Shown: piece after piece, positions 48,983-54,187 of the stretch
How positions within the stretch are numbered: the first letter of the stretch is position 1
How the letters are laid out: each line of letters opens with the position of its first letter
Position numbers and translations under genes: made by a program
The notes under the pieces: model-generated
Seen by the model: the letters and a program-made list of their open reading frames with translations, nothing else
What the model was told of the DNA's origin: nothing
The model's database searches: none
DNA from: Vulcanimicrobium alpinum
GTDB lineage: Bacteria; Vulcanimicrobiota; Vulcanimicrobiia; Vulcanimicrobiales; Vulcanimicrobiaceae
Direction of reading: 5' to 3'
NCBI RefSeq assembly: GCF_027923555.1
Contig: NZ_AP025523.1
Coordinates: 310,001-374,000 of the forward strand
Length of the DNA: 64,000 bases

Positions 48983-50800
48983 CTAGCCCGCCGCGCTGAG
49001 GCACACGGCGAATGCGATCATCGTCGCGACCGCGACCTTCACGCTGGGCGTGCGCAGCGTACGCGCGATGACGGCGATGCAGCCGACCGCGAGCGCGCAC
49101 CACGCGAGCCCCTGCGGCACGTCGCCGAGCACGAGCCGGCCGATCCCGAAGAGCGTCCCGTAGACGAGCCCGAGCCCGGCGATCCAGTCGACCAGCGCGA
49201 TCCCGAGGCGGTCTTCACTGCCGCCGGGGACCAGCCGCGCGATCGGCCCCCAGCCGGCGCCGCTGGGCCGCACCCGCGCGTAGAAACGCGTCAACGTCGC
49301 TTCGGATTCCGGTTTGGTGACGAACGTGACGCCGAGCCACACGACGGTCGTCGCGGCGACGGTGATCAGCAGGCGCTTCGCGGTCGCGTTCGGATCGTCG
49401 CCGACGACGATCCCGCTGAGATAACACCAGCTGCCGACGATCGCCGAGGTGGCGAGCGCGGAGATCTCGCTCCACGCGTTGATGCGCCACCAGTACCAGC
49501 GCAGGATCATCACCAGGCCGACGCCGGCGGTGAGCGTCAGCATGTATTTCCACGCTTCGCCGACCGACGACATGAACAGCGTGACGGCCGCGGCGAGGAT
49601 GCAGGCGACGATCGTCATCACCCGTGACACCGAGACGTAGTGCGCGTCGCTCGCGTCGCGCCGGATGAAGCGGCGGTAGAGGTCGTTGGTGAGGTACGAC
49701 GCGCCAAGGTTCAACTGCGTCCCGATCGTCGACATGTAGGCGGCGAGGAAGCCCGCCATCATCAATCCGCGCAGCGCGACGGGGAGATGGTCGACCAGCG
49801 TCTGCACGTAGCCGAGCTCCGGATCGGGCTTGCCGTTCGCGCCGATCACGCCGTGGGGGTAAAGGACGAGCGCGGCGAGCGCGACGAGGATCCAGGGCCA
49901 CGGCCGCAGCGCGTAGTGCGCGACGTTGAAGAACAGGGTCGCCCATACGGCGTCCTTCTCGCTGCGCGACGCGAAGATGCGCTGCGCGATGTACGAACCG
50001 CCGCCGGGTTCGGCGCCGGGATACGACGACGCCCACCATGCGACGCCGATGAAGACGAGGAACGTCGTCACCGGCATCCACGACGCCGCGTCGCCGGAGG
50101 GGACGAACGCCAGGATCGAGCCGCCGCCGCGTTGCGCGTCGAGCGTCGCGAGCCCGGCTTTGAGCGCGCCGATCCCGCCGACCGCGGCGACCGCCGCCCA
50201 CGCCAGCACGATCGCCATCGTCATCTTCACGACGAACTGCAGAAAGTCGGTGACCAGCACCGACCAGAAGCCGCCGATGGTGACGTAGAGCGCCGTGAAT
50301 CCCAGGCACAGCCACAGCGCGAGATAGGTCGGCACGTGCAGCGTGAGCGAGAGAATCTTCACCATCGCGAGATTCACCCAGCCCATGATGATCGTGTTCA
50401 CGAGCACGCCTTGGTAGACGGCGCGCACGCCGCGCAGCGCCGACGCCGGCGCGCCGCCGTAACGCAGTTCGATGAATTCGACGTCGGTGAGCACGCCCGA
50501 GCGGCGCCACAGCGCCGCGAAGAAGAACACGGTGAGGATCCCGCTCGCGGCCATGTTCCACCACAGCCAGTTGCCCGCGATCCCGTTCTGCGCGACGAAC
50601 CCGGTGACCGCGAGCGGCGTGTCGACGGCGAAGGTCGTGGCGACCATCGAGACGCCGGTGAGCCACCAGGGCGCGCTGCGGCCGGAGAGGAAAAACTCGG
50701 CGACATTCTTACCGCTCCCGCGCGCGAAGTACAGTCCGATGCCCAGATTGATCGCGAAGAACGCGACGATCACCGCGATGTCGAGGCCGCTCAGCGCCAT
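48983..50800 (-). CDS. Sodium:solute symporter (SSF family)
   Basis: This 605-residue protein has about 14 TM helices. It shows the SSF landmarks: an N-terminal FFLSGRSAPWWLTGVSMVATTFA region, the MAGFLAAYMSTIGTQLNLGASYLTNDLY block that forms the Na-site helix, and the repeated helices before it. SSF proteins take up sugars, amino acids or carboxylates with sodium. It is the last gene of a minus-strand operon with a secreted beta-propeller-like protein, an amber-interrupted secreted protein and an SDR oxidoreductase. The substrate is unknown. An extended C-terminal helix after residue 520 is a little longer than usual. Confidence 0.93.
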   Translation of the reverse strand: MALSGLDIAVIVAFFAINLGIGLYFARGSGKNVAEFFLSGRSAPWWLTGVSMVATTFAVDTPLAVTGFVAQNGIAGNWLWWNMAASGILTVFFFAALWRRSGVLTDVEFIELRYGGAPASALRGVRAVYQGVLVNTIIMGWVNLAMVKILSLTLHVPTYLALWLCLGFTALYVTIGGFWSVLVTDFLQFVVKMTMAIVLAWAAVAAVGGIGALKAGLATLDAQRGGGSILAFVPSGDAASWMPVTTFLVFIGVAWWASSYPGAEPGGGSYIAQRIFASRSEKDAVWATLFFNVAHYALRPWPWILVALAALVLYPHGVIGANGKPDPELGYVQTLVDHLPVALRGLMMAGFLAAYMSTIGTQLNLGASYLTNDLYRRFIRRDASDAHYVSVSRVMTIVACILAAAVTLFMSSVGEAWKYMLTLTAGVGLVMILRWYWWRINAWSEISALATSAIVGSWCYLSGIVVGDDPNATAKRLLITVAATTVVWLGVTFVTKPESEATLTRFYARVRPSGAGWGPIARLVPGGSEDRLGIALVDWIAGLGLVYGTLFGIGRLVLGDVPQGLAWCALAVGCIAVIARTLRTPSVKVAVATMIAFAVCLSAAG

Positions 50801-50842
50801 CCGCGCAGGGTTCGTGCGGCCGGATGCGCTCCCTGCGCGGGC

Positions 50843-51681
50843 TCAGAGGAGCGCCGCGCGCTCGCGGCAGCGGCGCAGGAACTCGGTCTGAAACTGCGGG
50901 TCGGCGAGCGCCGGCGGGAGCGAGCGAATCTTCCGCCGCTGATGAACGCGCCGGTCGTTTCCTCCCACTTTGAGGAGAGTGCGCCGTCGTAGAGCTTACG
51001 CGCGCCTTTGTCGGGCGAGGGCAGGAAAGCGAAAAAGAGCCGCATCCACAGCGGCGTCCCCGCGCCTTTCGTCAGCCGCGTGCGATTCGGGCCGGGGTCG
51101 ACGGCGCGCACGATGATGCGGTCGGCGGCGAGCTCGCGCGCGAGCGCGGTGGTGATGACGTTCAGCGCCGCTTTCGATTTCACGTAGGGGCCGAAGAGTT
51201 TGGTGAACGTCTGCGGGCGTACGAGATCGTTCCAGTCGAGCGACGTCGCCTGCAGCGAGAGGCCGGCCGAGGTGTTGACGACCGTCGCGCCGCCGGCATT
51301 GACCAGCGCAGGCCGCAGGCCATCGACGAGTTGCAGCGGCGCGAGCGCATTCACTTCGAAATCGAGCTCGTTGCCGTGCCCGGAGAACTCCAGCCGCTCG
51401 GGCAGCAGCCCCGCATTGTTGAACAGATATTGCACCGCAGGGAACGCGGCGACGATTTGGCCGCTGCAGCGGCGAATGTCGGCGTGGCTGGAGAGGTCGA
51501 CGGCGAACGTCCCGGCGACCGAACCTGAGCGCGTCGCCTCGAGGGTCCGCGCGAACGCGCGGGCTTTGTCGTCGTTGCGGTCGAGCAGCACCAGCGAGAT
51601 GCCGTGCGCGGCGAGCTGCCCGCAGAGCTGCGAGCCCAAGCCCCCGGACGCTCCGGTGACGACGGCGATTGGCGGCGGCAT
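50843..51681 (-). pseudogene. Short-chain dehydrogenase/reductase, 3' frameshift
   Basis: ATG 51681 starts an SDR with the NAD(P)-binding TGASGGLGS motif, LFNNAGLL, a catalytic Ser in VNTSAGL and YVKSK with Tyr and Lys of the active site. The normal ending IRSLPPALADPQFQTEFLRR is in another frame because one base is missing in the T/A run near 50930-50932. The corrected gene ends at 50843-50845, with about 279 residues. The uncorrected frame continues to 50791 and overlaps the symporter start. It may oxidise a compound handled by the same operon. Confidence 0.85.
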
Positions 51682-51693
51682 GACGGACTCCGA

Positions 51694-52434
51694 TCAGTCG
51701 GCGGTGCGAATGGGAAGGGGAACGAAGGTGGTGGTGCGCGCGCTGCCGAGGCCGCGGCCGGGCGCGTGTTCGAACGGTTCGCCGATCTCGTCGCCGCACG
51801 GATCTTCGAGCCGCGGGTGGATCGCGAGGCGCGCACCGCGGCGCCACGCGCCCGCCGGGACGAACGTCCACGCGCGTTCGCCGACGGCCAGCTGCGGGCT
51901 CCCGCGGGCGCGAGCGCCGTCGGGCAGCGCGACGGCGAGATACTCGCTCGCGAGCGCGTCGATCGGCCCGTTGAAGCGCACGACCAGCGGGTCGCGCGTC
52001 CCGGCGTACACCGTCGCGATCCGCCATTGCGCCGGATCGAGCGGCGTGCAGCCGCCGCGGCTCACCAGCCACGATTTCACCACCTCATCGCCGAGCAGCA
52101 GCCGGGTGCGCGCACCCGACTGCAGGACGAAACCGTAGGCGCGATGATGGGCCAGACCGATCTTTTGACGCGACGGATCGAGCAGCAGCGTCACGGTGCG
52201 GCGATCCGCCGACCACAGCGGCGGATCGACGAACGGATGCGGCACGAACGACCCGTCGGCGCGGCGCAGCCGCACGCGTTTCGCAACCGCCTCACCGGAC
52301 GGCTACGGAAAGACGATCGAGATGCGCAGCAGCGTTTCGGAGACCATGCCGCCCGACGGAAACACGCGCACGCCGGGCGCCGCCGCCGAACCCTGCGGCA
52401 CGGCGGCGGCGAGCGTCCCCGCGAGCGCGAGCAC
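51694..52434 (-). pseudogene. Secreted protein gene interrupted by in-frame TAG, function unknown
   Basis: GTG 52434 opens a signal peptide (VLALAGTLAAAVPQGSAAA) and a beta-rich domain. TAG at 52305-52303 interrupts the frame after ISIVFP, and the same frame continues with PSGEAVAKRVRLRRADG and onward to 51694 with conserved-looking motifs such as LLLDPSRQKIG and HPRLEDPCGDEI. It starts 4 nt after the stop of the beta-propeller gene and precedes the SDR, so it belongs to that operon. Without the TAG it would encode about 246 residues. A substituted sense codon is the simplest explanation. Confidence 0.6.
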
Positions 52435-52438
52435 CGCG

Positions 52439-53712: not shown

Positions 53713-53732
53713 AGTAGTATCTCGCGGGAAAG
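53713..53732 (+). promoter_or_regulatory. Left copy of inverted repeat flanking hxlR; likely operator
   Basis: AGTAGTATCTCGCGGGAAAG (53713-53732) is repeated inverted at 54168-54187 on the other side of hxlR. It overlaps a TAGTAT -10-like box in the divergent hxlR/beta-propeller promoter region. HxlR repressors bind such sites. Match to the right copy is 17 of 20. Confidence 0.55.
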
Positions 53733-53770
53733 CGGGAGGCGCAAACCCTTTCTTCTAAGCAGGCGGGCTG

Positions 53771-54154
53771 ATGAACGACGGGTCGGGGAGCTGGACGGAA
53801 CGCGATGAAGTGGCGATTCGCCGGATGATCGGCGAAGGGCGCACGCCGGTGCAGCGCGTCGCCAACGTGCTCGCCAGCAAACACAAACTCGCGGTGTTCT
53901 GGGAGCTTTCGACCGGTCCGAAACGGTTCAAGGAACTCGAACGCGCGCTCGCGCCCGTCACCGCGAAAGTGCTCACGCGCAACTTGCGCGATCTCGAAGA
54001 GATGGCATTCGTCGTGCGCGAGTCGTTCGACGTGTCGCCGCCCAAGGTCGAATACCGTCTCTCCCCGATGGGAGACGGATTGCGCGCGCACATCCACGCC
54101 TTGTGCGAGTGGTCGATGGCCCACGCCGACGCGTTGATGCCTGCGGCGGGATGA
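53771..54154 (+). CDS. HxlR-family transcriptional regulator
   Basis: This 127-residue winged-helix protein has the HxlR pattern: KHKLAVFWELSTGPKRFKELERAL, then VTAKVLTRNLRDLEEMAFVVRESFDVSPPKVEYRLSPMG with the wing, and a terminal dimerisation helix. HxlR proteins are dimeric repressors or activators of neighbouring genes, often redox- or aldehyde-linked. The gene is divergent from the beta-propeller/SDR/symporter operon, and an inverted repeat lies at both ends. It starts at ATG 53771 and is followed by a T9 terminator. Confidence 0.93.
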   Translation: MNDGSGSWTERDEVAIRRMIGEGRTPVQRVANVLASKHKLAVFWELSTGPKRFKELERALAPVTAKVLTRNLRDLEEMAFVVRESFDVSPPKVEYRLSPMGDGLRAHIHALCEWSMAHADALMPAAG

Positions 54155-54167
54155 GCGCTCCGACCAC

Positions 54168-54187
54168 TTTCTCCTGAGATACTACTA
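54168..54187 (-). promoter_or_regulatory. Right copy of inverted repeat after hxlR
   Basis: Read on the minus strand this is AGTAGTATCTCAGGAGAAAG, matching the left copy at 53713-53732 in 17 of 20 positions. It begins 13 nt after the hxlR stop. As a second operator it would allow looping across the gene. Alternatively it marks a small mobile insertion of the gene. Confidence 0.45.

Follow-up and report, generated by a model that had tools for sequence, protein, structure and literature searches.

We find that the hxlR locus in the window, the 64,000-nucleotide stretch of Vulcanimicrobium alpinum DNA analysed here, is best explained as a whole by a cassette that was acquired beside an ancestral symporter gene and is now decaying, a reading to which we assign a probability of about 0.7. 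A cassette of ~3.5 kb, carrying hxlR and the genes for a propeller-like protein, a second secreted protein (ORF2) and an SDR, would have entered a variable slot between the SSF symporter gene and a serine hydrolase/GH20 block, and would since have begun to decay. The initial annotation had grouped the propeller, ORF2, SDR and symporter genes into one regulated operon for uptake and oxidation; that grouping fails when the locus is set against its relatives, and two of the four genes are interrupted. An ordinary decaying acquisition is thus most likely, not a working uptake-and-oxidation system, and the case illustrates that genes read as one 'operon' in a single genome may be a long-resident transporter and a more recent arrival placed side by side.

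The features of the locus are as follows:

48983-50800, minus strand: SSF symporter (PF00474, Pfam SSF, E 7e-36), ancestral neighbour outside the acquired cassette
50840-54320, no strand: putative acquired cassette, approximate bounds
50843-51681, minus strand: SDR oxidoreductase (adh_short, E 1e-28), with a frame shift within 50926-50940
51694-52458, minus strand: ORF2, secreted protein with Ig-like relatives, with an in-frame TAG at 52303-52305
52439-53677, minus strand: propeller-like secreted protein, 412 aa, with a signal peptide and without a Pfam match
53713-53732, plus strand: left inverted-repeat copy, in the 93-bp hxlR/propeller intergenic region, candidate HxlR operator
53771-54154, plus strand: hxlR, HxlR/DUF24 winged-helix regulator, 127 aa (PF01638, E 1.3e-22)
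54167-54186, minus strand: right inverted-repeat copy, starting 12 nt past the hxlR stop codon
54233-54268, plus strand: terminator-like hairpin with a T-run, downstream of hxlR

The cassette bounds were placed where homology to congeners ends (~50839) and at the stop codon of the serine hydrolase gene (54320), and the start of ORF2 was taken to be the TTG at 52458. The propeller, ORF2, SDR and symporter genes follow one another in this order on the minus strand, with hxlR divergent. Reading frames, together with Pfam matches for HxlR, SDR and SSF, bear out the gene positions originally given, and Pfam names neither of the two secreted proteins, which had been described as lacking a recognised family.

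Evidence against a single four-gene unit comes from the symporter. It is 85-92% identical in all ten congeners (several of them draft genomes), where it sits in the same surroundings, with a GH20-type glycosidase next to it, and relatives occur in much of the family. The congener loci conserve the flanking gene order and contain no counterpart of ~50840-54320, and their slots give no match to hxlR or to the SDR. The slot itself, which reaches from the symporter to the GH20-type gene (50840-55640), is variable: depending on the congener, it contains a small secreted protein, a serine hydrolase, other genes or next to nothing, and the small secreted protein is present in several congeners with or without the serine hydrolase. 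Comparison at the sequence level thus shows a symporter that is ancestral in the genus and no member of the putative cassette, and its earlier assignment to one uptake and oxidation system does not hold, since congeners without the cassette also have it, next to the glycosidase. Pfam supports the GH20 domains of that neighbour, and a related genus has the starts of its symporter and GH20-type genes ~80 bp apart. The symporter shares the Pfam SSF domain with symporters of the sodium/glucose-cotransporter type, and its best solved match is the sodium/glucose cotransporter 2xq2 (E 9e-31). We infer that it imports a sugar freed by the glycosidase; as a sugar-type importer linked with the GH20 enzyme, it would receive at most read-through from the cassette promoter.

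The remaining genes have a different distribution. Neither sequence nor profile searches found a relative of the propeller elsewhere among the sampled genomes of the phylum. The closest SDR there shares 35% identity with that of the window, and hxlR has no close orthologue within the genus. Outside the phylum, the propeller occurs in Roseateles and in one further member of the Burkholderiales, on plasmids of Leisingera, Vibrio and Mesorhizobium, and in a few others; in the Roseateles family it was found in 6 of 301 sampled genomes. A phage origin of the propeller was considered and rejected, as phage records and viral contigs contain no relative. Two observations count against the acquisition reading: the GC content of the cassette (67.7%) resembles that of its flanks (~70.5%) and so gives no compositional sign of very recent arrival, and the best outside propellers, at only ~45% identity, point to neither a donor nor a date.

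Two of the four acquired genes, ORF2 and the SDR, look broken. ORF2 had been described as amber-cut, and indeed it has a signal-peptide-like start followed by the TAG, beyond which the same frame continues; in the family alignment, the column of the TAG is a variable one, flanked by conserved stretches on both sides. The interruption of the SDR had been missed: the YVKSK motif is present and the C-terminus is out of frame, such that a match to relatives requires a different frame, which ends at 50843, whereas the uninterrupted frame runs on to 50791. Of the secreted pair, the propeller is intact. With both ORF2 and the SDR interrupted, a working oxidation pathway at this locus is unlikely. Amber recoding of ORF2 was also considered and is unlikely, because none of the 45 tRNAs listed for the genome has a CUA anticodon and TAG serves as an ordinary stop for the symporter gene as well as for further probable genes in the window. 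A selenocysteine tRNA is encoded at 39472-39561 on the plus strand (Rfam RF01852, 77.1 bits; anticodon UCA), so that selenocysteine may be inserted at some TGA codons of this genome. Separately, a small conserved gene at 48579-48979, adjoining the symporter gene, has an in-frame TAG at 48682 where congener copies (~69-73% identical) read through; this was the only use made of a scan for stops against congener frames, which was dominated by antisense frames of GC-rich DNA.

We read the two broken genes as decay, and the main rival is assembly error. If the TAG and the frame shift were assembly or base-calling errors, the cassette would be an intact, working response unit under HxlR control. The propeller and hxlR are intact, as this would require, and three interruptions within ~4 kb (ORF2, the SDR and the TAG at 48682) could mark a poorly assembled stretch. 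However, the source genome is a single contig of 3.51 Mb with 99.65% completeness, and the flanking symporter, antiporter, sirtuin and hydrolase genes are uninterrupted, which makes an intact cassette improbable. Still less probable, and in our view very unlikely, is a functional four-gene operon under HxlR control, in which one compound is imported by the symporter, oxidised by the SDR and bound by the secreted proteins. All four genes do lie on one strand with short gaps, behind a divergent promoter region that holds a repeat copy, and the sequence shared with congeners reaches only ~40 bp upstream of the symporter start, so that the symporter gene may by now rely on the cassette promoter. 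Against this stand the ancestral symporter without a cassette in every congener, the two interrupted genes, and the outside loci examined, in none of which a symporter adjoins the pair.

HxlR-type regulators are commonly divergent to their presumed target gene, and the hxlR of the window is placed likewise. The 20-nt inverted repeat that had been reported to bracket hxlR is present: AGTAGTATCTCGCGGGAAAG at 53713-53732 and its inverted partner at 54167-54186 match at 17 of 20 positions, and the left copy lies in the divergent promoter region. Inverted pairs at least this good (17/20 or more, within 600 nt) number 34 in the window; by composition-weighted score the pair at hxlR ranks third in the window, and 14 of 30 Markov-shuffled windows contain a better-scoring pair. 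A repeat of such quality is therefore expected by chance somewhere in the window, and its position alone is suggestive. When only the two intergenic stretches flanking hxlR were shuffled locally, 17/20 was reached in 7 of 3,000 trials (local p ~0.002). The repeat is thus not striking in itself, but as a candidate pair of HxlR operators it is plausible, if unproven.

The two copies may also have nothing to do with the regulator, having arisen by chance or as the termini of a small mobile unit that carried hxlR alone, and this we regard as a real, if lesser, possibility. Exactly one gene lies between them, their orientation is inverted, and equally good pairs arise by chance in windows of such composition. 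A mobile unit, however, sits poorly with the whole 3.5-Mb genome, in which the only perfect matches to the repeat core are these two copies, so that there is no family of mobile copies; and chance sits poorly with the intergenic position of both copies and the local p value. Absence of the repeats in relatives had been named as grounds for refuting the initial annotation; within the phylum no other sampled genome offers a propeller locus for this comparison, and the hxlR-propeller region of Leisingera has no repeat comparable to that of the window. An AGTATC core is present there, with ~0.1 occurrences expected by chance. A sigma-70 promoter scan of the region, which says little for such an organism, returned no promoter, and nothing usable for this arrangement was found in the literature on HxlR operators. 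Returning to the operator reading, HxlR would bind the left repeat copy, between the divergent genes, and control its own gene as well as propeller-ORF2-SDR; such control, part of the original proposal, is plausible given the divergent gene and the repeat copy within the shared 93 bp.

The regulator itself has an HxlR domain over residues 33-120 (PF01638, 79.8 bits against a cut-off of 20.8), and its solved relatives among the HxlR/MarR-DUF24 regulators are HxlR (7bze/7bzd), YtcD, YybR and YodB. Members of this group that sense electrophiles or oxidants have a conserved N-terminal cysteine, which the window protein lacks: in the alignment it has Thr25 (Thr25-Pro-Val) where all six compared relatives have Cys-Pro-Val. 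In HxlR, the formaldehyde-sensing residue is Cys11 (PMC7835342), and with threonine in its place such cysteine-based sensing cannot operate in the usual way.

The propeller and ORF2 genes, judged from gene order and homology, form a genuine, conserved pair. In 13 of 13 Pseudomonadota loci, ORF2 immediately follows the propeller gene; one of these loci (Leisingera) also has a divergent HxlR gene, as in the window, and the pairs of Roseateles and of the Leisingera, Vibrio and Mesorhizobium plasmids keep the gene order of the window. The Pseudomonadota propellers are ~28-45% identical to that of the window over nearly their full length, and their ORF2 proteins are homologous throughout to the window ORF2, although the latter is interrupted. 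The SDRs behind the Burkholderiales pairs differ from that of the window, and at 23-25% identity orthology with it was rejected.

The label 'propeller' is tentative. The structure models of both secreted proteins are of low to middling confidence, from alignments of three rows each; that of the propeller-like protein has a mean pLDDT of 48.6, and its best matches are mostly WD40, NHL and designed propellers at TM scores below 0.3. No Pfam propeller family is above cut-off for it, nor did searches of Pfam, NCBIfam and PDB sequences, with the single sequence or a profile, return a family name above cut-off. For ORF2, weak Ig-like matches occur in the family, with Big_5 matched by 4 of 13 members (best 2e-8) and Big_13 by 5; the window ORF2 matches neither. 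Residues invariant in the propeller family include His196, His199, Glu203, Arg205 and Cys228 (window numbering), which could form a metal or catalytic site.

Outside the phylum, the neighbours of the pair include genes for GST, hemerythrin, pirin, NAD(P)H oxidoreductase, SDR, isochorismatase, nitroreductase, amidohydrolase, alpha/beta hydrolase, MFS transporter and LysR proteins. Such detoxification-type neighbourhoods point to a link between the pair and xenobiotic or electrophile responses, in which the exported proteins would act in the periplasm or envelope. Going further, the pair might be an undescribed two-protein periplasmic system, sparse in Pseudomonadota and often plasmid-borne, which HxlR or LysR regulators link to responses to xenobiotics or electrophiles, with the invariant His-x2-His-x3-Glu-x-Arg and Cys as a possible metal or catalytic site, and with the window as the only copy seen outside Pseudomonadota; taken whole, this description is tentative and rather unlikely to hold. 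The lasting lead is the conserved, unnamed secreted pair, whose presence in culturable Leisingera, Vibrio and Roseateles makes its role directly testable there. One plasmid, from Mesorhizobium ciceri, has two propeller/ORF2 pairs, separate from each other, in a 9-kb stretch (10031-11903 and 16874-18945), with GST, SDR and LysR genes alongside.
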